This document shows, piece by piece, positions 3,001-61,335 of a stretch of 64,000 nt of DNA (position 1 is the stretch's first letter; each line of letters opens with the position of its first letter). The DNA is from Selaginella tamariscina (Eukaryota > Streptophyta > Lycopodiopsida > Selaginellales > Selaginellaceae), in NCBI GenBank assembly GCA_003024785.1, contig PUQB01000302.1, positions 159,001 through 223,000 on the forward strand, written 5' to 3'. Both the position numbers and the translations under genes were made by a program. The notes under the pieces were generated by a model. The model was not told the origin of the DNA and made no database searches. It saw only the letters and a list, made by a program, of their open reading frames with translations.

Positions 3001-5750
3001 GAAACTTTGAGACTCCGTAGATCACTGCCAAACACTCATTGTTTGTTGTAGAATAGTTGTGCACAGTTGGTGTCATGAGCCAGCTTCCTTACGCTATGGG
3101 TCGTAGCATTTACTCTCTGTCTTTGTAGGATAGAACCACGCCTGCTGCTACGTTGGAAATGTTTGTCTGCAAGTGGAATTGTCGATTTTAGTCCAATGGG
3201 ATGAGGATGGATGCCTCCACCAATTGGCACTTGATGTCTTTGAAAGTGGCATGTTGGTCGGTAGTCCATTCATACAACGCCTCCTTCACGAGTAGTTCGG
3301 TTATTGGTTGGGCCCTATTAGCATACTACCTAATGAACTTGTGGTAGAAGCATGCCTTCCCTAAAAATTGTCAGAGCTCAATAATATTCTGGGGGTGTGG
3401 CATCTCGCACCAATCTCGGGTCTACGGTGATGCCCTCCTTGGATATGATGTGTCCTAGTAGCTTCCATGCGGTCTTGCCAAACACACATTTTGATGGGTT
3501 AAGAGATATTTCATACTCCTAGCAACGCTAAAAGTCTGTGAGGTTGTCTAGGAATACTCGTTGGACCAACCTCTAGAATGTGGTTGGGGCATTGCAAAGG
3601 CTGGCATGACCTTGAAGGTGTACGCTCCCAATCTATGATGAACATAGTCTTGGCTTGGTCTTCCGCCTTGATCATGACTTGGTTATACCGCTGAAGCTGT
3701 CCATGAACAAGTACATCTTGTGTCCTGTTACATCCTTTAGGATGGCCTCGGTGAACAGATGGGGAACGGGTCCTTCTCCATGGCCATGTTCAACCATCGG
3801 TAGTCTATGCAAATTTTTAGTTGTCCATCCTTCTTTAGCACGATGATGATTGGCGATACCCACTCCGAGTTTTCGATAGAGTACATAAAGTTGCTTTCAG
3901 CCACTTGTCAATTTCTTACTTGGCCTTCCAGGTGTAGTTCAGGTTGATGCGGTACTCTTACTGGCGATTGGGCCTCGTGTTGGGCTTCAGCTTGATCATG
4001 TGTTAACATAACTCTGGCGGTACTCCCCAGGTCATGATACATCTAGATGAACACCTCTCTGTGGTTGTGGAGGTAGTTGGTGATCCATTCCCTTAGCTCT
4101 AGGCTTACGTGGGCATTGACCTACAATAGTCATGGCTCCTCGTCTGTACATATGTTTACTTGTGTTATCGCTGCCTTGGGGGTAATGTTCCACTCGTATG
4201 TGGGCTTGTTGCAGTACTCCTTGTGAATGGGTGGAGCGACGTGTCTCAATTCCTTCCACAGTATGGGTCACTTCAGAACTTGCACTTCTGAGGCTTCCAT
4301 CTTGGCCTCCATCCTGGTCACCTGGTATGCAGTGGCAATCTCCCGTACCTCATGGCAAAGGTCTACATCTCCTATGAGGAACAAGTTCAGTAGGCAAGCA
4401 AGGATGGCTACTTCTTTGTCATTGTTGAGCCCTTCGCTCCAGTTTGGCATATTGTATTCTTGTGGTTGGGACTTTGAAGATGGTGCTCGGACTTGCTCTA
4501 CTATCATGAATATGAGTCTCTTTGGTGGGGAAGCTTACCTGATGATACTCCCAGTCATGCTGCACCTTTGCACCCATGAGCCATGGACAACCCAGAAGTA
4601 GGTCGACCCCCCTTTGAGTGCATGTTGAGGATGACAATGTTGATTAGGAACTTGGCGCTTTGAATCTTGATTTCTACCTTCCTTATGATGCCCTTGGGTG
4701 TCACCTTGGCTTGGTTCGCCATATGTACGAGGAAGGGTGAGAGCTCCGGGAGTGATATTCCCAACTTTTGGTGGAGGTCAACGAACATGATGTTCATGCC
4801 CGAGCGTCTATCCACGACGATGTTGCAGATAGTGCGGCCCGCCACTTGGATTGATATGGCCGCATGTCATTCACAAAGTCCACAACTTTTGTTGCAACCC
4901 TTAGTGGGTCTATAGTTGATCCATGTAGCTCTAGGGTGAGGACTCCATATAGACTGGGGGATAGGCGGAGTAACTTGCCTATGGTCACTGATACTTGGAT
5001 TTCTCGTATTTTGCCTACAAGGCTCTCATGGATTTCCATCATTCCTCCCATTGCTTGGCCCTAAGCAAGTCTTATTTGTTCTGTAGGCCTCCACCTTAGT
5101 GCACTTCCTCGCCCATTGTCCCAACTTAGGGGCTCTACCGCTACCTCCTCCTCACTGGACTCCCATCGTCCTCGTTCTTTAGGTCGATTGGTTGGCTCGC
5201 CTCTTTTGCCTATCGAACTTGCGACCTCGTGATTGCTCTACATGGTAGCTTCGGCAATACCACCACTACATGATTGGCTTGTGACACCAAAGCCGGTGTA
5301 GAGGGAGATGGTCGGGCCTTCTACGCCTTTGTGGTTCCCAATACGTGTGTCTCTAGTATGGGCTTGATCATTGAGATTCAAGAGCAACGGTAGACCAACT
5401 CCTAGCATTTGGGTCGTCTATCACTGTTGTCATACCATTTCTCAATTTGTGTGTGTCATCCTTGCGCAATCTTCTCTGTATCATTCCAATTTTGTCAAAT
5501 GTATCCGGAGGAGACCTATCACTATTGTCGTACCTAGGCCAATAAGGATGTCACTCTCGGGATCGCGACCAACAGTTGTGCTCCCCCGACTGCAACCTTC
5601 TATGGGGATGGTCATTCCTGTCGGTCATGTGCCATTGACCCCTCTAGTTGTCCGTGTCTACCTTCGGATTCCTCTCAACTGTTATTGTGGCTACCTAGGG
5701 AAGGGTCTTGCTCATGAGCTCGGTCAGCTTGTAACCTATTTTTCATAGTC
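1..5750 (-). mobile_element. Degenerate Ty3/gypsy LTR retrotransposon (fossil)
   Basis: Read on the minus strand, translated pieces appear in the order expected of a Ty3/gypsy pol. A retropepsin-like stretch lies near 4555-4845, reverse transcriptase near 3672-3863 and RNase H near 2834-3076, where the motif EKWILLLQDFDFTMIHKAGK is visible. The integrase core lies near 1929-2411 (RSCSDCQQIGRPT, then WGLDFVSLINL and VTIDYATKWVEMKAL). An integrase C-terminal GPYEV-like stretch lies near 1619-1900. The part from 1 to about 1560 lies 3' of pol and contains protein-like segments I cannot assign. I see no LTR at either end, and the left end may lie outside the window. The element is clearly broken many times and looks old. 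It is more decayed than the two chromoviruses at the right end of the window. Confidence 0.85.
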
Positions 5751-7020
5751 ACTACTATAGGGTGTTTCATGCTGCTGAAAACCTTTTTAAAGTTGTAACA
5801 ATGAAGCATGAGCATGTTGCCAACTTGTAAGTTGAAATATGCTCATGTATGAGGTGGCAAAAGTCAAGTATTCCATGTGCTCATGCTGTACCATGTATCT
5901 TATACAATAGGGAACAAGTGCAAGCTTACACTTACATGTTCTACCATCTTCAAGCGTATTATGCAACTTATGAAGGGATTATTACTCACGTGCCACACCG
6001 AGTAAAGCATGAGGAAGAAGAGAGGGATATGTTACCCCATCTAAGTCTTGCATGCATGGATGGCTCAAAAAGTGATGTATTCGCTTGTCAATAAATAAGG
6101 AAGAAAATGGGGAGATTCGTTGCTCGCGATGTTGTATGTTGGACACAATCAAAAGACCTATAGGAGTGCTATCTAATAAGAGTGGTTGTGTACTTGTGTT
6201 TTTGTGTATTTTATAAGAAAATTAAAAAAAGGAAAATTTATAACTTCATGGGCATTTTTATAAATATTTGTTAATGATTGTCTGCCTAAGGCACATTTTT
6301 GTAATTTTTAAAATTATAGGGGCATTTTTGTAATTACTCAAAGCCTTAGGGGTATTTTGGAATAATATATTATATGTATCTATTTAATGAAATATAAAAA
6401 AAAAATATATGAGTATGTTGCGGGGTATTATATTGAATATAAAATGCACTAGGGGATGAGGGATATGTTGAGAATCCCACATCAACAATGGTGGATTGCT
6501 TCAACAAGTCTTCAAACCAATAGTTAAGGATGCAAAACCTTCTGGAAGTAGCCTGCTCCCTCAACAAAATGGCCTGGGCAATGTTGACTTTGATGACCTT
6601 TTAAGAAACCCTAGTATATGTATGTGCATTTATGTATATATACATATCTATACATGAAGAGCGGGTACTTCATTATTTTTATTCTTAATAATGGAGTAAA
6701 TGTGCCTTGCATATGCATACCTTGGTCAAAACTCTATTTCATGTGGTGACTTTGGACGCGACCACATGGAATACTTTGCTGAAAAATTTTAAAGTTGAAG
6801 GCCCCTCTAAGAAGTTAAATAACGTTGTATCTATGGCACATGAGTATCGTCTTGCAAATCACATGATTATTCTAACAAATGGCAATGGGACACAAAATCT
6901 TGTATTATTGTATTATATATGTTTTGGCAACCATAGAAAATTATATATTAAGCCAAATAATGTTGGCTTTTATCTATTAACAGTACCTTTCAATTGATTG
7001 CATTTACTTTTGAGTAGATT
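5751..7020. other. Spacer with no supported gene
   Basis: This AT-rich stretch between the gypsy fossil and a solo LTR has no coding signal I can support. A 96-codon open frame at 6707-6997 contains TTWNTLLKNF, which faintly recalls a PPR repeat, but there is no second repeat and no gene context. From about 6230 to 6365 there are short near-repeats of 'ggcatttttgtaatt'. Confidence 0.5.
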
Positions 7021-10560: not shown

Positions 10561-11440
10561 CTTTTGACCCTCCTGATCTTGACATTCCTTAACTCATTCT
10601 TTTCCGCCATCAACTGTTGATTTTCGCTTATTAGCTATTGGTTCTCTTCCTTCACACAAACATTTCAACTCTGAAAGCATGCATGTTTAATCTTGTTGAG
10701 TGATTGCTGCCATTATCCTAACATGACTGAAACACAATTAACACGAAGGGAATTCCAATTCAAACTGTCATAGCCAAAGCCATAACAAAGTATTAACAAA
10801 ATCTTTTAGTAAAATGCAAGTTGTAACTAAAATGGGCATGGCTATAGTCCCATTTCCTAATAATTAGCAATTTTAGCTATTTAATTAGCATTTTCTAATA
10901 TTAAAGGAATATTCTTTAGAATATATGTTTGAAAAGAGAATATTCTATTTTGTATTCTACCCTTTAATAAATTATAGCATTCATTGAACAAAAATTAATA
11001 ACATTATAAAAGTAGAATGTATTAAATTATATAATATATTGCCTAATATAACAATTAAGGAAGAGCATAAGAGGTACATTATATAAATATTGATGTTGTT
11101 ATTAAAATATTAATATTTAAATATAACATTATTAATTAAAAATTTGTAGTAGTAATAATATATATATAAAATCCTATAATAATATAGTCAATCTTCCATA
11201 TCATTTTTTAAATTTATATAGTTAAGTATACAATTTGGTACTATTATTAAAGAGTTTATAATAATTATGAATATTAAATATATGATATTTTATAATTTTG
11301 TAATTGCTTTAAGCTTCAGAAAACATACATTCCCTTGCAGTTTTGTTAATCGTGACTTTATCAACGCTTCTTGACATCCACCCATATCGAATGGATTTAA
11401 CATTTATAAAACATGCTGGGTCTTTTTGATTGGGAGACCA
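10561..11440. other. AT-rich spacer
   Basis: Strongly AT-rich sequence with GGAATATTC-type words (for example 10905-10950) that recur at 15736-16300 and near 25190. No gene, RNA gene or element is recognised. Confidence 0.6.
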
Positions 11441-11448
11441 TGTTTTCT

Positions 11449-14440
11449 CTAGGCATCCATTATATCTTTCGCTCTCCTTCTCGTGTCGCCTTTTTTGTGG
11501 TTTGAACCATGCAACCTTAACAATACTTTTTTTGTGATTACTTCAGGTGTGTCGATAATTTGACCCATCCAAATAGGCTGATTATATGACGCATCTGGAG
11601 TAATGAGAACCATCATTAGTTTTTGAAGATCCTTGCAGCAATCAAAGTATGCTTTAGGTTTTTGGTTCCTTTGTCCAACAAAGTGTGGGGTTTGCACTTC
11701 CACATCACTACTGGCTTCTATGTCGTCTGTGCTCAGTGATGTCATTTCAATCTCCTCTCGCCACCTTGTTTTAGGCCAAAAGGGTGTTGCAATTCTGTAC
11801 TTGTGACAGTAGGCCCTTCCAACTCTCGAACAACAGTCTCCCAATAGTTGACCACATGCTTATATAGTTCTGAGTAACCAGTTGCCTTATCAGAATTCTT
11901 TGGCATCGATTTTTGAACCCATGCCACATATTTTTTGATGCCATCAATAATAACCTCTTGTTCCTTGAGCTGGGCACTCAATGGAATAGGGTCTGGTTGT
12001 CCTTCTGGGAGAAGTGGCTTTCCATCCTCTCCACTTTTGAAGAGCATTAAGCCCTCTTTCGGTAACCACTCCTGCTCTGATGGCCGTAACTTGTACTGCA
12101 TAATAGGTATACCATCTCGTATGGAGAAAAAGAATTGTAGCGGCACAAGGTGACCAACTAAAGAATCACTCCCTTCTTTTATATACTCCTTGAGAAATTT
12201 TTTGAAGTCTGGCACCTCAGTCACAAGCAAAGCACAACTTTTTTTGGAGATGCAATTTTCAAAAAGATTCATCATATGCGGTAAGGTAAGTGCACTTGTC
12301 CTTTTTGTAGAGTTGGAGACCTTGCTGAAGAACGCATCAATATCTTCATGAGTGTGACCAACCATAAGGAAACTGAGCGTGATTGTTTCAAACACACCTT
12401 TGGCAACAAGCATTGACAAGTATGCTAGCACATATCTAGAAAATAAAAGTAAGTATGAGCTTGAGAAACCCTTAAGTAAAATGATTTACCTATTTTTGTT
12501 CTCGCCTGCACAATTATCCATCTGTAAAAGCAAATGACGAGGAAGCTTATTTGATGTTGAGGACACATGTACACTATTTGAGCTAGATCCCTCCACTGAA
12601 CCTGAACTCTCAACAGGGCCATCTGTTTTTTGTGCAGGTTGCTGACAATGCCTCTCATATTCCCAAGTAGCCTCAAGTGCAGACGTGTTCATGAGAGCAT
12701 TATGTAAAGGTTGAAGGTGTTGTTTCTTCACTTTGAGATCACTGATAGGACTTGTCTGTGAGTGGGCTTCAAGGTTTCTGAAACACATGGCTAACGACCC
12801 AATAGTGAAATTGGAGTCGCTAGACCAATGTGGAAGTGAAAAGTGTCCATATGACTCACAACCGTGTCCATGTGTTAGCACACCTGTCAATGAAATCGGA
12901 AGTTTCATGACATTTCCAAGGCACTTTGGTGTTGCAAAGAGCTTTGGAATGCTGGTCTTTGAATGATCCATCTTGTCATGGATCAAGCACAGGTACTCTG
13001 ATGGGCGTGACACAGAAAGCATGCGGTGTGCATAGTACTGAGACCGGCAAGTTTGTTGTGCAATCATGTGGGCCTCCATCTTCCTTTGAATGGTAGTGAT
13101 CTCCACCAAGGTTTTTGCACAAGCCTCTGCAGCCTTCAATGATGTACAAGTGTCACACTTAGAAAAGCTAGAGTGTTTTGCAATCTCCACATCCTTAAAA
13201 TGAGTATTCCATATGTTGTTGAAGGTACCAGTGCAGATTGCTTGGAGCCCCATCAAACTGAGGCACTTGTTCACATGTTCACACAGTTTCAATTGAGTGT
13301 AGATTGAAGGTAAAACCTTGAGATTTTCCCTGACCCCTGCATTTGTGGTTCGGCATTTGTGAGGCATCCTGTCTGCATTTGCTTCCACAAAAGCCTTGAG
13401 TATCTCTATGGCTGCCATGATGTGAGAGCGGGTTTTGACCAAGCGAGTGTTCCCATGAACTGAGGTTCGCGCTCCATCTAGCCACTCATCCCTCCGACGG
13501 TAGAACGTGGTCTTTGGGATCCCGTATATACTGTACCAAGCTTTGAAGCAGATGGCCACCTTATTAAATACCATGGATGTACTCTGATAACCTGTGTCCG
13601 AGGCCATTCCATCAATACACCCAGTTAGTGCAGCATATACAAACTCATGCCTTTGCTTTTGGGTGAGCATACGAAAGACATGTCTACATTGGGTAATTTC
13701 ATTCCGGTCTGCCATCTGACAACACTTCTTCTTGCAACAGTCAATCGTGGAAATGCTCGTAACACTTTCGGAAGATGTAGGATCCATCTTTACCCTCTTG
13801 CTGAAACTTGCAGGGGAAGATCTACAACCCATGAATCGCCTTTTTCTTACAATAGGACCAATGCAAGGAACCTCTTCAAATATGAGTTGTTCTTCCGGGT
13901 TGTTATTATTGAAATCCAACCCAGAATATGTTGAACCATCTTGCCGTCTTAATTCAGATGTTCGCCACCTCACGAGGGATCCAGGATACAATGTGCCATT
14001 AGGTGAAACCTCTGTCACAAAACTACACCCACGAAGTCGGACCCTAGTTTCTCTTCTGACACTGCTTCCATTGGATTTATAGCTGTGATGATGCCTCTTC
14101 CGACTTCAATCTCACGAAGAAAGAGAATCACCTCATCCATCACAGCAGGCAAGCCATCATCTGGTAAACTCGTGCTACTATTTGTTTGTGACTCTGCATA
14201 TTCTGTGTCAGCCTTGACTTCATCCAAATTCCACAATACAGGAGAACCCTCCTCAAATTCCATTCCCAGAACCTCAACATGCTTGTAAATGGTGTTCACC
14301 CATACGTACACACAAGATCCTTGGGCAATATTGTGACATGATGCATTATTATCTCGAACTTCCACAGTTCCAGTGCCAACTATCTCGTTGTTCCGAAGAA
14401 GACATACTTTATCTCCAGTATTAAACATATTGTCCTGCAC
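11449..14440 (-). CDS. DUF7869-type RNase H-fold protein with two N-terminal beta modules
   Basis: Three minus-strand blocks form one gene. Block 1 (14440 to about 14030) holds two tandem copies of a small module: GDKVCLLRNNEIVGTG... and then MDEVILFLREIEVGRG. This resembles the DUF8039-like domain seen in plant transposon proteins. Block 2 (about 14030-12490) carries a Cys-rich stretch, the helix-turn-helix-like GIPKTTFYRRRDEW, then HDKMDHSKTSIP and LLLQMDNCAGENKNR. Block 3 (12435-11449) continues YVLAYLSMLV, FLMVGHTHEDIDAFFSKVS. The pattern D-KMD..., MDN-C-ENKNR..., GHTHEDID is what I recall for DUF7869, a domain with DDE/RNase H-like spacing of acidic residues. Blocks 2 and 3 join cleanly across a 54-nt GT-AG intron (12436-12489). 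Single-base frame shifts seem to exist near 14030 (GSDFVG into CSFVTEV) and near 11780 (TELQHPF into WPKTRWREE, at a T tract). A splice acceptor (GTGCAG) at the 5' end suggests an upstream exon. It could be a transposase or a host gene derived from one. Confidence 0.65.
12436..12489 (-). other. 54-nt GT-AG intron in the DUF7869-type gene
   Basis: On the minus strand the exon ends AACAAAAATAG and the intron begins GTAAAT and ends TTTTCTAG. The next exon begins ATATGTGCTAGC, giving ENKNR-YVLAYL in frame. The joined sequence is the conserved core of the domain, so the splice is well supported. At 54 nt it is near the lower limit for plant introns. Confidence 0.8.
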
Positions 14441-14582
14441 ATAAATAATTGTATTATTTATGATATCTGTTTATGCAATATTTCTAAGAAATCTGAATTA
14501 CGGTTACTTAATAATATGCATATGCAATAATACATAATTATGTTTAGAGATAATATCTCATGTTTGATTAATACAACTGATG

Positions 14583-15052
14583 GGCGGGATTAATCCCGCC
14601 CACGAATCCCTCCGACGAGGAACGGTCGGCGGGATTAATCCCGCCGCCGACTCAACCCCTTCGGAGAGAGTCGGCGGGATTAATCCCGCCCACAATTCTT
14701 ACGACGGGGAATGGGTGGCGGGATTAAACCCGCACATAACTCTCTCCAAAACTATGATTTCAAAGAGATCTCGGGATAAATCCTGTCCCCAAATCCTTAA
14801 AACAGGGATGTGGTGGCGAGATTAATCCCGCCACCCCTTCCCTGCCTCCTAAAATGGTTGGCGGGATTAATCCCGCCGACAACTCTTTCTAATAAATTCT
14901 GGTAACTCTTCATCAGTTGAGAAGGTTATCGGCGGGATTAATCCCGCCACTCTTTTTCAGTGGCGGAGAAGCATTGCCCGAGAGATGGTGGCGGGATTAA
15001 TCCCGCCACCTCTTCGAAGAGGCGAAAAAGAAATGGCCGGATTAATCCCGCC
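14583..15052. repeat. Palindrome array 1 (GGCGGGATTAATCCCGCC)
   Basis: About ten copies of an 18-bp perfect palindrome lie in 470 bp. Exact copies start at 14583, 14628, 14673, 14860, 14931 and 14990. Diverged copies start near 14717, 14772, 14815 and 15035. Start-to-start spacing is mostly 43-45 bp, with longer gaps around 14815-14990, so the sites keep a rough register while the 27-bp spacers differ in sequence. One spacer is itself palindromic (CCTCTTCGAAGAGG, 15009-15022). The array begins about 140 bp from the 5' end of the minus-strand DUF7869-type gene, in promoter position. Open frames crossing it are by-products of the repeat. Confidence 0.95.
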
Positions 15053-15735
15053 GCCCCGGTTAACCTAGAATATTAAGTTAAAAGGATATTTAAACGGGAT
15101 AAATCCCTAACGGAATATATTATAATCCTAATGCATTCCTAAACCCCTAAATTGTAATTTTAAGAGAGAATGTAAGAGAGTGAATCTTTATAAGTATTTT
15201 TAAATTTGTTTATAATACTTACTTGTAAACAGCACTGAAGGCGCCGTGCTTTCCTATAAAGAATAGCACCCAATTTAATCTCGCTCCTGAGATGATCACT
15301 ATGAAGAAAAAAGAAGATCTAAAGAGTGAAAAATACAGAAATGAAGAAACCCTTGCCGGAGAAAGAACCAGATCTGAATTTGAGTGGGAAATTAAATGCA
15401 TTTTCAAATTTACATGTCAGACCGACAATACATATGTCAGAAATTCAAATTTTTTAAAAAGAACAGAAAATAAAATTTAAGATGAGTTGACACAAATATC
15501 CGACACTCTCCAGTTCCAATGAGTATTTTAAAATTGCATTTAATGTTATTCAAGTGATTCAAGCTGTTTAATATTACGAAATTTTAGACTATATTCTACA
15601 TTCTTAGTATTCAAGTATATTTATATTATATATATATATATAAATATATACTTATACAATAAATAAATTGATATATTATTATGTATCATTTAAAATATAT
15701 TCATAGTCTGTTTATTATTATTATTTTCTTAATTA
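15053..15735. other. AT-rich spacer after array 1
   Basis: No gene is supported. It holds a short GC-poor tail, an A-rich stretch at 15290-15480 and a TATA run near 15630. Short frames here show no recognisable domain. Confidence 0.55.
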
Positions 15736-16300
15736 CTCGAGTATTTAGTTTTCATTTCCTAGTATCAATGGGATATTCTTTAATATTTTATTAATATTTG
15801 AAGAATATTCTAATATTAAACCTGATTATCATAATTAAATTAGTCTTGTTCTTAATTATTGCAGTAATTATTCTACATTTGTATATATTAATGGGATTTT
15901 CTCAATTAATTTGTTATTATTTCAAGAATATTCATGTGTTAAACCTTATTATCAATATTAAATTAATACACACTATGAACATATTTTAAATACATAATAA
16001 TACATTTATCTAATATATTAGTCATATATAGTTTAATAAATATATATTAATATCATTTCCTTAATTACTTGAGTAATTAATCTTCTTTATATTAATGGGA
16101 TATTCTTTATTATTTTCTTATTATTCCAAGAATATTCCAATATTAAACATGATTATGATAATTAATTTAGTTAATTATTTGAGTACTTAATTTACATTTG
16201 TATATATTAATGGGATTTTCTCAATTAATTTCTTATTATTTCAAGAATATTTCAATGTTAAACCTTTTTATCAATATTAAATTAATATATATTATTAAAA
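15736..16300. repeat. Four tandem AT-rich ~110-bp duplications
   Basis: Four related blocks start near 15736, 15850, 16065 and 16175. Each contains 'aatgggat(a/t)ttct', then a TTATTA-rich stretch, 'caagaatatt', 'attaaac' and 'attaaatta'. They differ by point changes and small gaps, so they are old tandem duplications. The AAGAATATTC core is close to the palindromic word GGAATATTCC seen elsewhere in the window. No coding capacity is seen. Confidence 0.75.
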
Positions 16301-16631
16301 CTATATGGCTATATATTAGATAAAATCATATATTATTATGTATAATTTAAAATATGTTCATAGTGTGTTTATTAATATTATTTTCTTAATTATTCGATGT
16401 TTGTTTTGCACACATATATAAACACAATCATAAATTTACACACGCATTACAAGAACTTACAAAAACACATATGCACACACATGCACAACCCTAAACCAAA
16501 CTGAAGAAATATGTTGCTTCTTTATTGAAAACATCATGTTCAACGCATGTATGATATATGTACTCAATCTGTGTGTATGTAACACATTGAATTTACATGT
16601 GTAATATTTATATTAAGCTTGTTGGGAGCAA

Positions 16632-17205
16632 ACCCTAAACCCTAAACCCTGTGTATACATGTGTGTACAAAAATAATTTTTCAACACTCTCTCTTCACAC
16701 CATGCATGATCCATCCTAAACCCTAAACCCTAAACCCTAATATGTAACACAATGAATTTACTCATGTAATATGTATGTATGTCTGTGTGTATACACGTGT
16801 GCATGTATATATGTGTACTCTGTATGTATATATGTGTACTTTCTGTCTTCTCTCATACATACACACCATGCATGATCCATGTTAATATGTACTGTCTCTC
16901 TTCTCTCAAACATACACACCATGCATGATCTATAATATGTACTCGGTCTCTCAATATTATGTACTAATATGTATGTATGTCTGTGTGTATAATACACACC
17001 ATGCATGATCCATAATATGTACTGTCTCTCTTCTCTCATATACTATGTATGTATATCTGTGTATAATATGTGTAAGTATATATGTGTACTAATATATGCA
17101 ATGTGTACAAAAATAATTTTTCAACACTCTCTCTTCTCTCATACATACACACCATGCATGATCCATCCTAAATCCAAAACCCTAAACCCTAAACCCTAAA
17201 CCCAT
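16632..17205. repeat. Interstitial telomere-type repeats within a local tandem repeat
   Basis: CCCTAAA runs occur at about 16632-16650, 16715-16740 and 17176-17203. This is the Arabidopsis-type telomere unit. They are embedded in longer repeated blocks that also contain 'acactctctctt', 'catacacaccatgcatgatcc' and TATGTGTA tracts (compare 16675-16740 with 17115-17203). TTTAGGG-like words also appear on the other strand at 17415-17535. Short interstitial runs like these are common in plant genomes and do not show that a chromosome end is near. Confidence 0.85.
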
Positions 17206-17579
17206 GTAATATGTATATGTCTGTGTGTATACACGTGTGTATGTATATATTATGTGTATTAATATATGCAATGTGTATGTATGTATTGATACACATGAAA
17301 CTTTAACACTCTCATGGACACACACATGTTAAATCCCTGCATGATTTATATTTTTGGGGTGTATGTGATACACCCACGCACACGCACGCGCTAATAATAT
17401 AATGAAAGAATATTCGTTTAGGGCGAATCTATATTTTATTCTTTTTAGGGTTTAAGTATATTCTCAGAAGGAATATTCTATTAGGGTTAATATATATATT
17501 TAATTCCTTTAGGGTTTAGGTATATTCTTAGGGTTTCAAGAGGCGGCGGCTGTGAAATCGGCGGCGGCGGCTGTGCACA

Positions 17580-17590
17580 CAGGTGAGATC

Positions 17591-17621
<31 letters not shown>

Positions 17622-17887
17622 ATATGTATAGGAGTGTGCGTATAAATTTATTTATTAGTTTTATCTCTCGCACACACACGCACACTCCTGTGTATGTATA
17701 TGTGTGTGTGGGTGTGTGTTTGTTTATCTGTATGATTTTATTTGTTTCGCTCACACACGCATACACACGATATACATATACACATATATATATATACCTA
17801 TATACATATATACATACATATATTATGTGTACCAGTATCTGTAAATTTTTTTTATTGATCTATCTCTCCCACACACACGCACACTGC

Positions 17888-17966
<79 letters not shown>

Positions 17967-18600
17967 CAATGCATATTAACAAAGTATACAACACTAGTTT
18001 ATATATATGCTTATATATTCATATGGGTTATATATCTATATACACACATATATATATGTGTGTGTGTTTATCTGTATAATTTTATTTATTTATTAGTTTT
18101 ATCTCTCGCACACACACGCACACTCCTGTGTATGTATATGTGTGTGTGTGTGTGTTGTTTATCTGTATGATTTTATTTGTTTCGCTCACACACGCATACA
18201 CACAATATACATATACACATATATATATACCTATATACATATATACATACATACAACACTAGTTTATATATATGCTTATATATTCACAGACTCTCTCTCT
18301 TTCTCTATGGATTATATATCTATATACACACATATATATGTGTGTGTTTATCTGTATAATTTTATTTATTTATTAGTTTTATCTTTCGCACACACACGCA
18401 CACTCCTGTGTATATATATGTGTGTGTGTGTGTTTGTTTATCTGTATGATTTTATTTGTTTCGCTCACACGCATACACACGATATACATATACACACATA
18501 TATATACCTATGTACACACATATATTATGTGTACCAGTACTGTATAATTTTATTTATTTATCTATCTCTTGCACACACACGTACACTCCTATACATACAT

Positions 18601-18649
<49 letters not shown>

Positions 18650-18716
18650 TATATATATGTGTGTGTTTTTATCTGTATAATTTTTTTATTTATTAATTTT
18701 ATCTCTCGCACACACG
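17580..18716. repeat. Compound microsatellite with higher-order repeat
   Basis: Mixed (TG)n, (CA)n and (TA)n tracts are organised into a longer unit. The phrase 'tttattagttttatctctcgcacacacacgcacactcctgtg' style of segment recurs at about 17648, 18090, 18372 and 18690, each followed by TG-rich, then 'gtttatctgtatgattttat', then CA/TA-rich sequence. Unit lengths are roughly 280-440 bp. The longest pure run is (CA)n(TA)n at 17889-17966. The long plus-strand frames here translate only simple sequence and are not genes. Confidence 0.9.
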
Positions 18717-18731
18717 CTAAGCCCCTCGAGC

Positions 18732-20204
18732 GGCGGGATTAATCCCGCCGCTATAGGTTTATGGCCTCGGCGGCGGGATTAATCCCGCCGCTATATGGTT
18801 GGGGCCATGGCGGCGGGATTAATCCCGCCGCTCACCCATGCCCTGCGCGGAATGCGGCGGGATTTATCTCGCCGGCAATGGCCTGTGTGAAGGCCCTAAT
18901 GGGCGGGATTAATCCCGCCGGATTCCGCGCAGGGCATTTACAGGGGATGGGCGGCGGGATTAATCCCGCCGCTCATGAGGCTAACCGAAGAGCCTGCATG
19001 AAAGATCCTGCACGGAAGGCTAACCGAAGAGCCTGCATGACATGTCCTGCGCGTAAGGCGGCGGGATTAATCCCGCCGCCCAGGGAATTCACGCAGGACA
19101 TGAACGGCGGGATTAATCCGGCCCCACGCTCATGCCCTTCGCGGAGGGCGGCGGGATTAATCCCGCCGCTCAGGCACTTCCGCAGGATATAAGCGGCGGG
19201 ATTAATCCCGCCCCACCCATCCCTGTTCAAAATGCCGCAGCCAATATATATGTGTGAGCGCATGATTTACGAGAGGGCGGCGGGATTAGTCTCTCCGAAC
19301 CTTCATTACCCGGTGGCGGGATTAATCCCGCCACCCTTCTTTTTTTCCTCCATTGGTATGTTGAATCAATCCCGACTAACTCTGTCTGAGACGGAGAAGG
19401 TTTACAAAATACCAATGGAGGGAACTGAGAAGGGTGGTGGGATTAATTTCACCATCCCTTACATGGTGGGCGGGATTAATCCCGCCGCGTACGCATGCCC
19501 TGCGCGGAATCGGGCGGGATTTATCCCGCCGCCATTGGCCTGCCTGAAGGGCCTAGGCGGCGGGATTAATCCCGCAAGATTTCGCACAGGGCATTGGCGT
19601 TCGGCGGGATTAATCCCGCCGACTAAGGCCTGAGTGAAGGGCCTGGGAGCGGGATTAATCCGCCGGACGCATTCCCTGCGCGGAATCGGGCGGGATTTAT
19701 CCCGCCGCCATTGGCCTGAAGTGCCTAGGCGGCGGGATTAATCCCGCCCGATTCCGCGCAGGGAATTGGCGTCCGGCGGGATTAATCCCGCCGCATAGGG
19801 ACCGAGTGAAGGCCCTGGGCGGCGGGATTAATCCCGCCGAGTCTTCAATGCCTGTTGGAGGAATGAATCCCGCCACCCTTCCTTTTTTCTCCATTGGTGA
19901 GTCGGACCAATCCTAAACGTTTCTGTCTGAGACGTAGAAGGTTTTCAACATACCAATGGAGAGAATTGGGAAGGGTGGGGAAATTCATTTAACCATCACT
20001 TACATGGTGGGCGAGATTAATCCCGCCCCCTTTCTGGAGTCACTGAAGGGGTGTGAGAAATAAATCCTGCCCAGTTCTCTCTGAGACCGAGAAGGGTGGC
20101 AAGATTAATTCCGCACTCCCGTTCAAGGCCTCCAGAAAGGTGGCGAGATTAATCCCGCCCACTCTTTCAGGAGGCATTGAAGGGGTGGCGAGATTAATCC
20201 CGCC
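18732..20204. repeat. Palindrome array 2 (GGCGGGATTAATCCCGCC), with nested inverted repeats
   Basis: About 25 copies of the array 1 palindrome lie in 1.5 kb. Exact copies start at 18732, 18772, 18812, 18902, 18953, 19060, 19150, 19195, 19315, 19469, 19603, 19731, 19775 and 19821. Diverged copies include 18856, 19106, 19279, 19436, 19513, 19559, 19688, 20010, 20142 and 20187. Many are extended by GC on both sides. The spacers also pair: ATGCCCTGCGCGGAAT (18838-18853) is the reverse complement of 18922-18937, with a GGCC...GGCC hairpin at the exact centre. Similar pairs occur at 19495-19510/19579-19594, 19671-19686/19751-19766 and 19041-19056/19088-19102. The array ends about 340 bp upstream of the ParB-like gene and decays toward that end. 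Confidence 0.95.
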
Positions 20205-20547
20205 GCACCTTCCATGTGAATATATATGTGTATTAGTATATATAAGTTGCATATCTCATTTTATTTACTTTTATCATCTTATCATAATATTTCGAGTAAA
20301 AGCTAGGAATCTATGTAAAACTGTCCAGAGCTCACATTTGTGGTGGTTCTAAAACGAAATGTTATCTTTCTTTTGCACTAACACAAATGTGAGCTTCGGA
20401 CAGTTAATTACGTCTACTTCTCTCTGTGTATTATTTTTGTATATTCGGGTTTATACAAGTGTGTGTGCGTTTTTATATAATTTGTATTCATAGTGTATTA
20501 TTTTGCAGAAGGACGATTTGATCAAACAAGGAGATCGAGTCATTAGT

Positions 20548-23500
20548 ATGGAGTCGTCGTCAAATTCTGGGTAAGAATTAAAATAAAATCTGTTATACTC
20601 GGATACTTGAACTAATCATTTTTGTATTCAGATGTGGAATTGAGGTGACATTAAAGACAAGAGCAGGAGAAGAGATGGGCAGGGGGATTCTGGAATCAAC
20701 TTGGCCATATTTTAAGATAAATGGGAAGCGCATTGGAGCAACCATGGCTGCTGTCAAATTAACCTCTGTCACATCTCATGGACAAGCAAAACAATGGAAA
20801 GTAGATTCGCTAGTCAAGCACCCGAAAGCAGGCTGCGAACCCAGATTGGACGATTCTCGACACATATGCCTTGTTCCATCCAATGTCACGTTCTCGGATC
20901 CAGAGGTCGTCAGTTACAACATTAATTTCGGGTGGTTTTGTCGACTTGTGGATAATGACGTTCACGTGTTCACTAATGATGTTGACCTTGGAGTTCTTCT
21001 TCAACTCAACGAAAGCCCATCTATGGAGGGGATCCATCTGGATGTCTACTTCGAAAATCTTCAGACTCATCGAGTAGGTGTATTGTCAGGAGATATTGCT
21101 TCACAATACAGAAAATCAGCAAGTGAAGCAATCTTCCCTCTTCACATTGAAGAAGAACACAGCGACATCATAATGGAGATTGAGAGGGTGGCTCGGTCTC
21201 AGGTTCTCTACAGATCACGTTCAATTTGCTTAGGGAGCTTTGGGAGCTGGAAGAGTGTACCGAGAACACTAGAACAGCTGCAGTCGGGGATCACACATGT
21301 TGATTCGGATCGCAAAAGAAAATCATCAATCGTTTTGTCAGCTGCACCTGTGGCATCTCATGCTGCAATAAGTCACAAGGAAATGATGTTGGATGATAAG
21401 ATTTATCCTTGTAGGGTTAAATATTGCAGCGTCAACCCAAACTTCAATTACAGGCCACTCAACCAGGAACGTGTAGCTGAGCTCATGGAGAAGATGAAGG
21501 ACGACAATTCTTATACCGTTCCACATAATGCTGTTTTGTGTCCATACTATGAAAGAAGGAAGGGCGCTGACAAAGTCTGGATCACAACACCAGAACAACT
21601 CATGAAGATTCAGACGGAGAATAAAAAATCTATCAAGTACTACATCATTAGTGGCCAGCACACAATAACGGCAGCCCAACGACTTCTCGAGGAACACAAC
21701 AAAGGAACGATGGCAACAAAACTTTCCGAGCATACCCGTGAGAAGCTGACAAAAAGATCGGCGTTTTTAGCTAAGCCGAATCTCACAATCGAGCAGTACC
21801 ATAAGTTATCGGCGGAATGGGACGCTGCCGACACCAACCACTACAACAGCAAAATATGGGAGAAGTTTAAACACACACGCGAGCCGTGTGGGAATCTCTT
21901 CAGCGACCACAAAGAGCTACCGCAGGGAATACACAATCTGCGGAATACCGGGTAAGCAAATTGTTTGGGCGGGATTTATCTCGCCGGTATATTAATCTGT
22001 CTTTTTCCTCAGAGAGTTGAAGAAATTGCAGCAGTTGATTTTGCCCAGGTGGGCGGGAAGGAAACATCCTTTCTGATGATGTTGATTTCTTGCCCCGAAG
22101 ATAAGATCTTTGCCAAATGGTTGGGGATTATGGAATCCTTTTCAAAAGGAACACTGAAGAAGAAGCAGACAAGTGAAGGGGAGCCCTCAGAAAAGTCTGC
22201 AAAGAAACCCAGTAAGACGCCGAAGGCTAAGTCTGTTCAATCTACAAAGGATGTAGACAACGATTTCAAGCTCACATGGTTGAAGCCTTTAAATGGAACA
22301 ACGATGGAGGAGATGGAAGTCTTGGCTGATTTGGTGATCGATGGCAAACTACAAATTAATAACAGCAGCCCAACCTCTCCTTTTCATCTCAAGGCAATGG
22401 AGTTGAAGACGGTCAGGCATTTCAAGGAGTGGTTGGGAATACACTGCCACAAACTGGGTTGGACCTCGACTTCAACATATGAAGAGGTCAGCAAATATTT
22501 GCATGTGACGAACGATGATATGCTTGTCGAATGGGTGAACCAATCGGAAGATCTGGGCAAGAATCTATTGCACGCCAACGCCAAAAAGGAGAACATTGGG
22601 ATGACGCCTTCTCTTATGGCAGTCCTTCAGCAGCGGAGAACCGAATTGAACCTTATAAAGGAGGATGCTACAAATCACGACAAGCCCTACAGATGTTTGT
22701 TGTTAGATTCGGAGACTTTATGGGGTAACATCACTGCTTGTAGGAAACCGTTTCAATTGTTCGTGATGGATCGGCGGGTGTCAAAAAATCTTTCGACAGA
22801 TAGGGCACTAGAGGATCTGGTGGAGAAACTTAGCCGTGCAAGCATATACATAGAAGGTATTTATTATTGAATTCATGCTTGCGCTCTTCACTGATACCTA
22901 CTTTTTCAGGTATTTATTTCTTGATTCTTGCTCATGTCACCGATACTTTTGCCTTCGCCTTCGCCAAGAAGAATAGACATCGTTGGACAGGATTTTATAT
23001 GAACGATGCTAATCCCAAGTGCATTGATACCGTTGTTCACTTGGTTGTTAGGAATGCGCCAAACAATTTCAAGCTTCCAAATGACTGGCCAGGCATCTGT
23101 TTGCACTCCAACGGCCCTGAACCTCCATCCGATACACCGATAGGTATGAGTGACGTATTCGAATGTACGTTATCCAAACATTACAAGTCAAGCGGCACGG
23201 AGCATCGTCAACTTGATTAGGGGTCCTCACAGTGATGCGTGGGTTTTTGACTACTGCACTAGGGGGTCCGTCTTGAAGGAGTGTTACCTTCGGCATACAT
23301 GTGTGTTTGCCGTTGAAAAGGATAAGACCATGGTTGAGGACCTGAACAAGTGGATAGATTGGGTCTCAACTGAGTACCCCAACGATTCCATAAAGGCGTA
23401 TTTGAGAAAGTTCCCTCCAGATAAGTGCGATAGCTCTGAAGGTGAATCTGGTTCAATCTCGGAGTCTGAGAACGAACTTCAATCAGATATTAGACCGGAA

Positions 23501-23653
23501 GTTATCTCGAGGAGTACAGAACATTCGCACACTCCAGGACCCATGGAAACATCAATAGAAGATGCAGAAGATCTTGAACCATCTCACAAGCGGCTTAGAC
23601 CTTCTTCGCCTCACTCAGAAGGTAATAGCGAAGAAGAATTGATAATGAATTGA
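20548..23653 (+). CDS. ParB/sulfiredoxin-like and DNA-methyltransferase-like fusion protein
   Basis: The chosen start is ATG 20548 (MESSSNSG). Exons are 20548-20570, 20632-21951, 22015-22856 and 22910-23653, joined by GT-AG introns of 61, 63 and 53 nt that keep frame. The N-terminus (EMGRGILESTWPYF...IGATMAAVKLTSV) resembles the second module of the divergent DUF7869-type gene. The middle has ParB-like boxes: PLNQERVAELMEKM followed by PHNAVLCPYY, then YYIISGQHTITAAQRLLEE, like the G-x-H/R-R-x-x-A box of the ParB/Srx fold. A Lys/Ser-rich linker follows. The C-terminus RYPNITSQAARSIVNLI...WVFDYCTRGSVLKE...VFAVEKD recalls the target-LI and D-x-F-x-G-x-G SAM-binding region of beta-class DNA methylases. 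However, the GxG is changed and the DPPY site is not visible (LFVMDRRV lies where it might be), so it is probably inactive. The tail is acidic and serine-rich. The last exon needs a frame change near 23150. AATAAA follows at about 23726. Functions are inferred from motifs only. Confidence 0.6.
21952..22014 (+). other. 63-nt intron containing one array palindrome
   Basis: The donor GTAAGC follows ACCGG, and the acceptor is the second AG of TCAGAG. Using it keeps the frame (NLRNTG into VEEIAAVDF). The intron holds GGCGGGATTTATCTCGCC (21968-21985), identical to the variant unit at 18856-18873 in array 2. It is the only copy I found outside the two arrays. The palindrome takes up nearly a third of the intron. 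Confidence 0.8.
22857..22909 (+). other. 53-nt intron flanked by a direct repeat
   Basis: The intron begins GTATTTATTATTG and ends CTTTTTCAG, and the downstream exon begins GTATTTATTTC. The ten bases GGTATTTATT occur across both splice sites (22856-22865 and 22909-22918). Splicing gives SIYIEG-IYFLILAHV in frame. A direct repeat across both junctions is what intron gain by a short duplication, or by insertion with target duplication, would leave. Confidence 0.75.
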
Positions 23654-23925
23654 TAGAGTGACGAATAGTTGTAAATGAGTGTAACATAAGGCATTTTTGT
23701 ATATTTCTTTTATATTTGTACAGAAAATAAATTCTCAAGGATTAATGAAGCTTTTAGTTCAAACATGGGTCACACATTAACAAGGTAAATAATATACCTT
23801 GATAATTTTAAGGTCAGCTAATTATCATTTTGCAGATGTAATGAAATAATTGAGAACATGGATTTTCAGCATTGCATGAGGTAAGAGAGGGGTTTGGCGA
23901 CAATTATCTTGTGCCACATGTCAGA

Positions 23926-25091
23926 ATGACAGAGTTCATGCAGGAAATGGATAATAATGCAGCTCAAAACATCGTTACCATGGGGGCCACTTCATCATCA
24001 TTTTTATTGGCTTCAATTCCGAAATCAATTTCTTCAGCGCATGCAATATCTGAATCTTGTAAGGATGATGTACAATTAAATGATGAAGGGATAGGCAACG
24101 AGATAGTGGCAACGGATAAATGTGAAAGGGAGCAAACAAGTGATTTGCAAAGTATTCAAGAGGCAACGCTATCTCATGTTACTCATGGCCATATTGTGTT
24201 GTTGGATGTCAATGGTGTTCTGCTTCATCGACAAAGGCCCCAGGATAGAAAAAAGAAATCAAACAAGGAGATTTCATTCCTTGTCATGGTAAATTTCGAT
24301 ATGATATTATTTTTCGTCCAGGGTTGGATCGTCTCTTTCAAAAGCTTAAGGAGATGGGTGCGCTTGTGGGGATTTGGTCATGCATGCAGATTCATAACTT
24401 AACACCGCTGTTGAATTTACTTAAGAAACATTGTAGTGTTGCAGAAGAGGTGATTCGTAAAGATTGGATTTTTGACCAGCGAATGTGTCATAAACCTCTC
24501 GAATTTCACAATATAAGAAAGGAAAGCAAGCCATACTTCTTCAAGAATGAAAGAATAATTGGGACTCATGGGGAGATCAGTCGCTTAAGGATAATGAAGA
24601 ACGCACAGATGTTAGTAGTAGACGACTCTCCTCAGAAGGCTATGCTCAACCAAAACATTGCTTGTATTCATCCAATCACTTTCGATCCATATTCTGATAC
24701 CGATATCATGGATGAGCTAGTGAACTACTTGGATACGTGCCTCAGAAAGAAGAATCTCGAAAATTTTTGTGAGCAGTATCCACCGTATCATACATTTCCT
24801 GAAGCTTTTCTTTCTCGTGATATTGAATTTTATAAAATGAAGGATAGCAACCGGGCGCTTTATAATATTATTCTTAAGGAACGTCAGTTTTTAGATGAGC
24901 CTTTATGCAGACCTTCTCTTATCACATCTTATGTATTAACAAGGATGGCAACTCCCAATTGCATTCGTGAGAGTGTTAAGTGGTGGCAACAACATCAAGA
25001 TATTGACCAAAATGATTTGATTAATCCGGAGAGTGATGATTTAGACAAAATGAAAAGATTTCTTTGTATGATAGAAAGAAAGTATTTATAA
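23926..25091 (+). CDS. FCP1/NIF-like HAD-superfamily phosphatase
   Basis: The start at ATG 23926 (MTEFMQEMDNN) is tentative, because the frame is open upstream to 23872 and a splice acceptor (TTTTCAG) lies at 23869. HAD motif I reads HIVLLDVNGVLLHR, where the usual second Asp is Asn. D-x-N-G-x-L is common in plant NLI-interacting-factor-type phosphatases. The segment FRYDIIFRPGLDRLFQKLKE then GIWSCMQIHNL matches the R-P...W-S motif II region. LVVDDSPQKAMLNQN is motif III. A C-terminal helical region follows. Motif I and the RPGLD segment lie in different frames, and the change falls at or near the A6 tract around 24250. This is either a real frame shift or a consensus error. The family dephosphorylates phospho-Ser/Thr, classically on the RNA polymerase II tail. 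The role here is unknown. It lies 270 bp downstream of the ParB-like gene on the same strand. Confidence 0.65.
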
Positions 25092-26917
25092 AAAATTAAC
25101 ATGTTGATAAGAAAATGATTTCATTTGTAATTATGTTTGATAGTATTTCTTCATTATTGTAAACTATTTTTAGAATAATATGAATATTCTAAGATATTTT
25201 AGGAATATTCCTTACTAAGTAAGGTTATTGAAGGATTAATTAATTAATTAATTAATATTTAAGGCTTAATTACATATTAATTAAATGATTAATTAATAAT
25301 TAAAACTTAAGTATTAATTAGTAATTTATTTTATATTCCCATTTTCACGTATCATGCCCACTTTAGTTACAACGTGCCATTAAGTATTAATTAGTATTAT
25401 AAGAAATGAGCTAACAACATTAGAATATTGAACCCTATCTCTAGCCTTATCACTAGTTATAGATTTGAATTTGCACCTCTGATTCCAAATCAGAAACTAG
25501 ACCATCGATCACATATCTAAATTTGAACCTTTAGTTTTATATTTGAATCTGATTAGACTATGAATTTGAATCGCCTCATGATCCTGAATATCCAAAGGAT
25601 TATTCTGTTGGCATACCAACATCATCATCAATATGGTATATTCTAATGGTTCATGACACTTATTGATTTCGTCAAATAAGAATTTAATCACAAAGCTAAT
25701 CTCATATCAACAAGTCTCATTAAGTAAGGATTAGCCTATTCACTTTTACAAGCTTATCTCATATTAACATGTCAATTAAGTTAACTTTTACAATTGATCT
25801 TGTTATAACTAGGTTTCATCAATTAAGGATTATACAAATTCATCCTTGATGGAAATTGAACTATGATCACTTTCAATACTGAATATTATCTCTCTCCCCT
25901 AGAACTAATTCGTATTACTTTGTTTACTTAATTGAATGATGCATACAAAACCCTTGTATTACCTAATCAGGTATCATAATATATATGAGCAACTCTTATT
26001 AGGTAAGAACCACAACATAGGAGCTCACCATAAAGTGCTAGACAAAGATGCTATGGCTCAAGAATGTAGTCAAAATTAATTTTGATATATAGTTGATGGT
26101 TAAATATTTATTAATGTCAAAAATTACCATAGGACGGAGTTTATGACTAAGGGAAGGTGATCAACAATTGAAGATTGACCATGCATTAGCGTTAAAAGAA
26201 CAACATGGATTAAGCACATTATGACCCTAGTCATAGTAGTGATGATTGTCAATCATCATGAGGATGGCATAAGCAATGATTTACATGATGGTACCTCAAG
26301 ACCTTAGTAATTCAAATGTTAAGTATGAATTTGCATAGTTCATTAGCTTACTAATTAATACCCATTGTTCTAACTCAACTTTTGCACAAACATATCCATA
26401 CTTTGACTACTTCAAAGTTTTTTCTATGCTTGATCGACACTTGAGTTCTAAGAGTAAAGGTTGATATGAATAGTGAGCATGAGATCCTACAGGGTAGTTG
26501 GTACAACATCATAAAATATATATTTTTTAAATATATAAAATAAAAATTCATAGTATTTAATTCCAAAACATATTGAATTAAACATTAATATAATATAGTT
26601 ATTTACAATCTAATTATGTAGTTTAATAACATTTTATATTTAATTTATTTCATTCCAATTTGTTATGTTTATTTTATTTTATTCCAATTCATTACAATTT
26701 GTTATGTATGTATTATTATTATCATTGTATTTTATTTCAAATTCCAACACAAATATATAAAAATAATAATTTCATTAAAATCTAAATAAAGTGAATAATA
26801 TTTGGATTCACTTAATTAAGTTATATATTAATCATTTTTTAGAAATTATACAAAGCTTTTTAAATAATTTTGTTTCATATGTAATTACTTTTTATTTTTA
26901 AAGTTTTGTTAATAACG

Positions 26918-27167: not shown

Positions 27168-29391
27168 GATGGAGGTTTTGAAGTCGGTCGCCCGTGTCTC
27201 AGAGCACCGCGTTCTTCAATGGCCAATGGATCAGGACCAGGATGCAGTCGATTACGGCGAGATCCTCTTGAATCTTCTTTTTTCAGCTGGATTACGGCTG
27301 CTCATTTGCGCGCATCATGCCCTTGCTCATGCCCTTGCTTGAAATGGTTTCAGGTAAGCTGGGCCCAGAGTTGTTTCAGCAGCAGGAGTCGGAGGGATGT
27401 GATCGCCTGGTGGCATATTTGGAGGGCTTAATGCCGGTTACGGATGCGAAGCCTATACTGCAGATCCAGCAGGATGTTGTGGATTGGGAAGAAGCATTTT
27501 TTATGGAAGCTGGAAGTGCAAGTGCACCAACACCAACACCGCATCTGCTCTCAAAGCTGGATGGTTATGCTGGACAGTGGGATGGAGGGGTTACTTGGCT
27601 GGCTCCATTCACAGCTGTTGTGCAAAGCAGTGGATGGGGAAAGTCACGAGCTATTTGTGACCTTCGTAAGCACGGGATCTTCGTGGTCTACTGTTCCTTT
27701 ATGAAGCCGGAATACACGGGTTTTCCTTGCAGAAGTGAAGTGGCAAAGTGTTTTTGATGCGGGAATAACCCAGCACGTGGTCTGTGCTTATCTAAAGGCC
27801 TGCTTGGAGGTGTTGATCGACAGTGATATGTCAGCGGAGCAGTGGCTGCAATGCCAGATACGTCGGAACGTGAAAAACATAGTTGGCGAAGCCATCTTGG
27901 AGCGTTACAGGACAGTGCTGCCAGAGATGTTGGGGAAGACCGATATGGAACTCCGACAGTCTCTACTACAGGTAGTCCAGAAGCTCCATAAGAATAAGAG
28001 AGAGTCGCTGAGACAGAACGGCAAGCTAAAGGTGCTGTTTACGTTTGACGAGGGTAAGGGGTTGAAAGACTTGCACACAACATTTCCAGTCTTCTGCAAG
28101 GCTATGAGCCACTTGCCAGTAGGGTGCGGGCTCTTCGTGGTTTTTGCGGACACGAATGCATCAGTCGTGAATTTTACTCCACACCGTGACCTAGACCCCA
28201 CCGGAAGAGTCCGTAAGCATGGCCAGAGGCTCTTTGATCCTATCCATTTGATAGGAAAGGCGGACCTATTTGCTCCTGACACGACACCATGGAGATCTGG
28301 CAAGAAGGGCGATCTCGTTCCCGAGAGTATGTTCATGCACGGAAGACCGCTGTGGGGTGTGCATTTGTTAAAGAGCAAGGGGGAAGCGAAGGAGGTCCAT
28401 TTGAAAGAGCTTGTTAGGTTCGCTACCTGGAAGCTGCTGGGCGAGAAGAGCGTGCAGCTGTCCGAGGGGCTTACCAAGCAGGATGCCGCTGCCGTTTTCA
28501 TGGCCTGTATTGGACCCGAGGTTTTGTCGTGGTCCTATTTGGCGCAAGACCTTGTTGCTGGCCACATGGCTACCTGCATTGCCACGACGGATGAGAGGCA
28601 GCGGGTCCTTATGCTGGGTATGAGTGAAGCAGTTTTGGGGAGGCGGCTGCATTTATTCTCCATCAGCTGGGCTTCCTAGTACGTGCACTGGGGTTCTTGG
28701 TCGAGCTTGTCACTGAGGGGCTGGTTTTGGAAGGAGCACGAGGCGAGCTTGTGGTGAGGATGGTGTTGCTGCTGTGCATGCACAAGTGTGCAAGCAGAAG
28801 CAGAGCGATGTCCTTCTACACTGGCTGTGTGACACTTCGGGAGTTTCTGGGGACGATGTTTGGGGAAGGCTGGAAGGCCAGCAACTGCAGCTCAGAGCAC
28901 CTTGATGCTGTCACATGCTTCAACCACTTCGTTCCGCTGTGTAGTGGTGTTGAACTCACCAAGCAAAGGCTGTGGGGGTTCCTCACTGCAATATTGTATC
29001 CACGTGGGGAGTTTGCCTCCGACATAGGAATCCCTTGGGTTCAGTTCGATGCCCAAGGCAAAGTGGTGGACGTTGGCGTTTTCGAGGTCCAGGTTAAGAA
29101 TCGTCTGTGGCTCGCAACGGGACAAGCATCTGACGCCTGGAACAAGTTGAAGAAGCGCGGCAGAAGAAATGGTTCCCAGTCAACCTATAGTTGTCCTGAA
29201 CTTGGGTGGTGATGAGTGCCTTCTGGATCAAGAGCAAACTTCTTTTGGTATTTCACAGGAAATGTATCCATTTTTATACAAGGTGGTTGTGCAGTCTCTG
29301 GTGAAGGTGTTGAAGGCAGAGACAAGTTTTCGAGCTTACATGCCCCAGGAAGAAGTGAAGCTCGTCAAAGCAATGGCGGTTCTCTCTTTGT
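27168..29391 (+). pseudogene. Crinkler-type P-loop NTPase/nuclease gene (fossil)
   Basis: The region is clearly coding and GC-richer than its flanks. Parts in order are: an N-terminal region from the ATG at 27168; a P-loop-like stretch (AVVQSSGWGKSR, about 27610-27650) followed by FVVYCSF; a Walker B-like stretch (VLFTFDEGKGL, about 28040) with FVVFADTNASVVNF after it; and a C-terminal stretch (VGVFEVQVKNR, about 29070-29105) that looks like the ExK of a PD-(D/E)xK nuclease fold. This order resembles the P-loop NTPase plus restriction-endonuclease-like proteins that belong to, or lie near, the Crinkler effector class. Those are known from oomycetes, fungi and scattered other eukaryotes, some of them linked to transposons. 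The coding sense is spread over about four frames. Some joins may be introns and others breaks, so I treat it as a probable fossil. It lies 2.1 kb downstream of the FCP1-like gene on the same strand. Confidence 0.55.
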
Positions 29392-56216: not shown

Positions 56217-56221
56217 GTGAG

Positions 56222-61245: not shown

Positions 61246-61335
<90 letters not shown>

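Follow-up and report, generated by a model that had tools for sequence, protein, structure and literature searches.

Why should a single 18-bp sequence be repeated, in two arrays, on the 5' sides of two divergent genes of Selaginella tamariscina? In the stretch analysed here (contig PUQB01000302.1 of assembly GCA_003024785.1, positions 159,001 to 223,000 of the forward strand; 64,000 bases, hereafter the window, whose own numbering is used throughout), the perfect palindrome GGCGGGATTAATCCCGCC is present in 20 exact copies and in 14 others with up to three mismatches, 34 sites in total, compared with a mean of 0.00 and a maximum of 0 in 100 dinucleotide-preserving shuffles. An earlier note on this DNA had claimed about 20 exact and about 15 altered copies, in two clusters about 140 and 340 bp from the two genes. 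The counts agree with ours, the nearest sites lie about 155 bp from the predicted start codon of gene A (14428-14426, minus strand) and about 344 bp from that of gene B (20548, plus strand), and the two clusters stand, with one extra site (21968-21985) beyond the range described. A single DNA transposon of about 14.6 kb (10814-25380) contains both arrays and both genes, and we lean towards reading the arrays as internal cis-regulatory binding-site arrays of this abundant, cut-and-paste-type element, for a regulator of the element's genes. The features of the window copy are as follows.

10814..25380, no strand assigned: whole DNA transposon copy, from blastn homology limits, terminal repeats and target-site duplications (TSDs)
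10810..10813, plus strand: left target-site copy, TAAA; its right counterpart, 25381-25384, is TAAG, imperfect in the window copy
10814..10840, plus strand: left terminal inverted repeat, ATGCAAGTTGTAACTAAAATGGGCATG
25353..25380, minus strand: right terminal inverted repeat, with one added base near the outer end in the window copy
11309..14428, minus strand: gene A, DUF7869 protein, with a predicted intron at 12489-12436 and its end placed via other copies
14435..15222, minus strand: predicted intron in the 5' untranslated region (5'-UTR) of gene A, containing array A; donor GTAAGT and acceptor TGTGCAG in six of six aligned copies
14583..15052, no strand assigned: array A, nine palindromes within three mismatches, six of them exact
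15223..17582, no strand assigned: region spanning and including both predicted first exons, without a palindrome within three mismatches
17583..20508, plus strand: predicted 5'-UTR intron of gene B, containing array B; donor GTGAG and acceptor TTTTGCAG, six aligned copies
18732..20204, no strand assigned: array B, 24 palindromes within three mismatches, 14 of them exact
20548..23653, plus strand: gene B, orphan protein, predicted exons 20548-20570, 20632-21951, 22013-22856 and 22910 on
21968..21985, plus strand: lone palindrome variant GGCGGGATTTATCTCGCC, two mismatches, within the predicted 61-nt intron of gene B (21952-22012)
24249..25091, plus strand: NLI-interacting-factor (NIF)/FCP1-like phosphatase domain, PF03031 (E 3e-9, 37.2 bits against a cut-off of 21.8)

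The limits of the element were found by blastn of the window against the regions of 100 listed palindromes, in which homology begins at 10812-10815 in nine copies and ends at 25375-25385 in four and at 25259 and 25272 in two others. The ends, which start ATGCA, form an imperfect inverted repeat, ATGCANGTTGTAACTAAARTGGGCATG, whose 21-base core was found genome-wide 2,021 and 1,944 times on the two strands at no more than one mismatch (3,965 in total; control 0). Among 16 facing end pairs about 14-15 kb apart, eight are flanked by an exact 4-bp TSD, compared with 4 of 240 in a cross-pair control; no exact 4-bp duplication was seen in the other eight, and a 3-bp duplication was seen in one of the 16. 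Shared boundaries, terminal inverted repeats and TSDs therefore place the arrays and both genes in a single DNA transposon, with the inverted ends and fixed-length duplication of cut-and-paste elements. If every end were paired there would be about 2,000 copies, occupying nearly a tenth of the genome, which is an upper guess from the end counts because solo ends were not tallied apart. Two of the copies (c897A and c897B, C1:897000-936999) have identical left flanking sequence and so likely represent one duplicated insertion, this stretch probably having been duplicated after the element inserted. A diverged relative was also seen (L024, C1:2053000-2062999, at 1337-6137 of that region), which has the same left end, but with gene B pieces beside that end in the other orientation (two of them at 77-81% identity). 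Its palindromes include variants altered in both halves, for example GGCCGGATTAATCCGGCC.

Genome-wide, the exact palindrome occurs 27,128 times in 300.7 Mb (1,391 contigs; reversed control 0), and the 100 copies listed of these are clustered, often as paired clusters about 3-4 kb apart, like those of the window. Nine regions of contig C1 outside the window, picked for holding the motif, contain 101 exact palindromes, and every one of these is no more than 300 bp from DNA homologous to the element; three more copies picked by their ends (C14, C46 and C65) each have both arrays. The earlier note had suggested a genome-wide count of the 18-mer, and had set against its own proposal an abundant satellite without any link to the neighbouring gene families. 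The abundance is real, but a stand-alone satellite is disfavoured, given that in these nine regions, a small sample of the 27,128 sites, every exact site was within or beside the element. The clusters do accompany the same two genes, because a single transposon carries arrays and genes together, rather than because such promoters belong to a family of host genes.

The position of the sites within the element is orderly. Ten full or nearly full copies, c897A and c897B among them, hold 346 palindromes within three mismatches (26-46 per element), and 325 of these fall inside three predicted introns, namely the 5'-UTR introns of genes A and B and the 61-nt intron of gene B. Intron A has 9-18 sites per copy in all ten copies, intron B has 11-27 per copy where it is bounded (its donor was located in nine of the ten), and the 61-nt intron has a single site of the GGCGGGATTTATCTCGCC type in every one. 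The remaining 21 sites belong to a single copy, C46, in which no intron B donor could be located at up to one mismatch; they occupy the stretch from intron A to the intron B acceptor. No palindrome was found in the coding parts or near the element ends of the ten copies, nor between the two predicted first exons in the nine with a located donor; the palindrome-free interval in the window copy (15223..17582) likely holds divergent promoters. The predicted 5'-UTR introns may instead be plain upstream regions. Within the arrays, spacers vary in sequence; the ten copies have 312 spacings below 200 bp, of which 217 measure 40-46 bp, including 123 of 44-45 bp.

Whether the palindrome itself is maintained, as the earlier note had supposed from the differing spacers, can be judged from substitution inside and outside it. 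Between subfamilies, palindrome columns differ at 13/365, 12/323 and 19/394 positions (3.6-4.8%) and spacer columns at 88/818, 68/704 and 81/818 (9.7-10.8%), so that the palindromes change about two to three times less than the spacers compared, a ratio that is somewhat flattering because the divergence of a site is capped by the rule for counting it, a match within three mismatches in one copy or the other. The unequal rates uphold the supposition, and the gap persists when A/T and G/C positions are taken separately. Against its two nearest copies the window shows few differences (palindromes 1/393 and 3/392; spacers 17/837 and 15/844). The observed/expected ratio of CpG is 1.0-1.1 for the arrays, 0.6-0.8 for their spacers, 0.39 for gene A and 0.74 for the region of gene B.

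A constraint profile was built from 351 sites within five mismatches in the window and the nine regions, which reduce to 267 distinct contexts. Information is 1.10-1.92 bits per position within the 18 bp and falls sharply beyond them, to at most 0.42 bit in the ten flanking positions. Mismatches at half-positions 1-9 number 80, 30, 68, 93, 57, 20, 8, 5 and 31 of 534 in these contexts, and 58, 19, 51, 47, 35, 12, 7, 4 and 19 of 310 among 155 flank-distinct sites. The strictest part is thus the GATTAATC core, with A7 and T8 most constrained, and with G4 and G5 the most variable among positions 4-9. The E2F core, GCGGGA/TCCCGC, would need G4 and G5, so the resemblance of each half-site to an E2F site that had been remarked in the earlier note is disfavoured by this profile, not decisively, because G>A changes at these positions could partly reflect methylation decay. 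A hairpin or other RNA-structure role is likewise disfavoured, because the bases of the would-be loop (positions 7-9 and their partners) appear to be among the strictest. Symmetric double changes exceed expectation mainly at position 4 (11 vs 2.9; 4 vs 1.4 at position 3), an excess that we do not press because five of the position-4 cases are one repeated sequence.

The motif is repeated and symmetric, its constraint is graded along its length, and it lies in intron-like DNA beside both gene starts, all of which fits binding by a dimeric regulator. We infer that a dimeric, sequence-specific protein would bind GGCGGGATTAATCCCGCC, reading the GATTAATC core most strictly, at the 26-46 sites of each element, nearly all of them within what would be the spliced first introns of the two divergent genes, and that the bound regulator would control transcription of both. 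The likeliest purpose of such control would be to keep the element genes expressed despite host silencing. The regulator is probably encoded by the element itself, and gene B would be the first candidate because gene A likely encodes the transposase.

For gene A, the DUF7869-type assignment in the earlier note proved sound, as two exon frames match PF25273 well above its cut-off of 26 bits (95.4 and 47.9 bits; E 4.4e-27 and 1.6e-12). Pfam labels this domain as of unknown function, and the named relatives of the protein come from Physcomitrium, Riccia, molluscs, corals and sea urchins. Alignment and a structural model indicate the strand-helix order of RNase H, acidic residues at the canonical DDE places and a middling structural Z score; in the VIA list, transposases come first, followed by Argonaute and other RNase H-type chains, and Foldseek returned no match to the model at E <= 0.001. 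The strand-helix order, the acidic residues and the Z score suggest that the DUF7869 protein is likely a DDE transposase. In exon 1, the nonsynonymous rate (dN) is well under the synonymous rate (dS); in the window copy the frame is disrupted within 14105-14018, within 11859-11745 and beyond 11452.

For gene B, the name ParB-like given in the earlier note is not supported. The likeness was a local motif seen by eye, and neither Pfam, PHROGs, NCBIfam nor PDB sequences gave a significant match to the protein. The only rows returned were below threshold (PH_BUD3_C, E 0.036; a pantoate ligase chain, E 0.39) and were taken as chance, and a single-sequence model of one piece (predicted local distance difference test score, pLDDT, 45.5) was too poor for a fold search. 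A stretch of exon 4 (23150-23653) that resembled, by eye, the S-adenosylmethionine-binding part of a methyltransferase was also unsupported in Pfam, PHROGs and NCBIfam. The coding sequence is under selection between subfamilies, with dN/dS of 0.21-0.27 in exon 2 and, in exon 3, dN of 0.012-0.019 and dS of 0.093-0.122. Exon 2 is repeated in the genome, with 96 matches at 89-100% identity scored of 6,802 first-look candidates. The frame of the window copy is disrupted near 21887 and within exon 4. The NIF/FCP1-like domain downstream may belong to gene B, as its final exon, or to a separate third gene.

Several points weigh against a regulator encoded by the element acting at maintained sites. 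The rate comparison covered 14570-15060 and 19460-20210 with gap columns skipped, and 18721-19459 of array B was omitted because much of it is without a counterpart in the other subfamily. In the weakest case, array B against copy c1_1, palindromes and spacers differ at 10/232 (0.043) and 30/493 (0.061). Sites were gathered by likeness to a consensus, favouring conserved ones, and the copies have a common history, so that their sites are not independent; tandem duplication and conversion could also hold repeat units alike. As for the candidate proteins, searches of 5.8 billion proteins (with about 20 query residues shifted, and with exon 2 alone in one search) gave no gene B homolog at E <= 0.001, no DNA-binding domain was recognised in it with Pfam, PHROGs or NCBIfam, and neither the NIF-like region nor exon 2 of gene A shows clear purifying selection. 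Host factors, finally, could bind the palindromes instead.

This last possibility is the strongest of the alternatives, even if we consider it rather unlikely: the transposon would carry a host motif in intronic enhancer arrays, and a host transcription factor would drive its genes in certain cells. Homeodomain-type TAATCC/GGATTA and E2F-type sites are examples of such motifs, and the palindrome is a perfect inverted repeat that includes GGATTA/TAATCC; the placement of the arrays in the predicted first introns of both genes and the lack of a known DNA-binding domain recognised in gene B also speak for it. Set against this, all 101 sampled exact sites are in or next to the element, though DNA distant from it was hardly sampled, and for an E2F factor the required G4 and G5 are variable. 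It is improbable that the arrays have no function, being tandem repeats spread by slippage or conversion in a neutral part of the transposon and amplified by transposition. Site number does vary among copies, and the genes diverge more slowly than much of the element's centre, but the palindromes change two to three times less than the spacers interleaved with them, mismatches are spread unevenly over half-positions 1-9 (4-58 of 310 among the flank-distinct sites), and CpG is less depleted in the arrays than in their spacers (1.0-1.1 vs 0.6-0.8). That the arrays serve transposition rather than transcription, as transposase or accessory-protein sites like those of TNPA in CACTA elements, would suit a repeated motif specific to the element and a DUF7869 protein that resembles a transposase in sequence and model, but is hard to credit for sites that are central, all those of the window copy being more than 3 kb from both ends.

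Other repeats and mobile sequences share the window. Stretches that are Ty3/gypsy-like by eye occupy 50508-64000, with arrays of a 13-bp unit, TATCCTATAGGCA / TATCCTGTAGGCA, at 50508-50649, 55997-56180, 58639-58787 and 63582-63729, a further case of arrays within a mobile element. Two minus-strand frames at 36654-38023 resemble, by eye, a HARBI1-type transposase and its Myb/SANT-like partner (PIF/Harbinger), and plus-strand frames at 27272-29212, without a Pfam match, resemble by eye a P-loop, Crinkler-type protein. Telomere-like CCTAAAC/TTTAGGG units were also seen.

A regulator of the element's own genes would have precedents among known transposons. VANDAL elements are of the Mutator type, and no Mutator-type family was found at E <= 0.1 in the seven fragments of the Selaginella element that were scanned, where only DUF7869 and NIF rose above cut-off. 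The VANC proteins of Arabidopsis VANDAL elements bind short motifs arrayed in introns and upstream DNA and spread by tandem repeats, and silencing is thereby lifted (PMC5735166, PMC10398659). The Selaginella element is like VANDAL21 in having dense short-motif arrays in introns and upstream non-coding DNA of a DNA transposon (325 of 346 sites in predicted introns and 21 at the position predicted for intron B), and like the VANC target repeats in that the arrays are formed by tandem repeats and differ in number between copies (PMC5735166). It differs in that the VANDAL motif is the nine-base YAGTATTAY in a single orientation and the Selaginella motif an 18-bp palindrome, and in having a DUF7869 protein, a 4-bp TSD and no recognised VANC-like protein. 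In En/Spm (CACTA) elements, according to PMC2613891, the element-encoded TNPA recognises subterminal repeats, and a soybean element made a three-base duplication; a repeated motif specific to the element is common to both systems, whereas the Selaginella arrays are central, the ends are ATGCA and the TSD is 4 bp. CACTA ends, a 3-bp TSD and subterminal repeats were accordingly not what these copies displayed. Fungal DNA transposons with a TET/JBP dioxygenase, as described in PMC12730594, resemble it in having an added gene with a supposed role against silencing; the element scan gave no TET/JBP match, and here the extra gene is an orphan, with a NIF/FCP1-like phosphatase domain. On our analysis the element is best classed with neither VANDAL nor CACTA but as a DNA transposon of DUF7869 type bearing VANC-like arrays, because transposase type, TSD and motif differ and there is no subterminal site.

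Each component of this system is of a known kind; neither the combination nor a transposase role for DUF7869 was found described in the open-access literature (searched partly with narrow terms, partly at the top of longer lists), in which the term DUF7869 had no match. A more specific proposal, which we offer only tentatively and think rather doubtful, is that a plant-lineage group of DUF7869 DDE transposons evolved, independently of VANDAL, its own anti-silencing or self-activation system, in which the orphan gene B protein would bind first-intron palindromes, about 27,000 of them genome-wide, possibly acting on RNA polymerase II via the NIF/FCP1-like domain.

The element lends itself to testing, having many copies, an 18-bp site that is defined and two proteins as candidates, and suggests a transposase function for a Pfam domain of unknown function that occurs in plants and invertebrates. 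If a factor encoded by the element does bind the arrays, it would be a second, independently evolved VANC-like case in a different type of transposon, and would test motif-array self-regulation as a general transposon solution.

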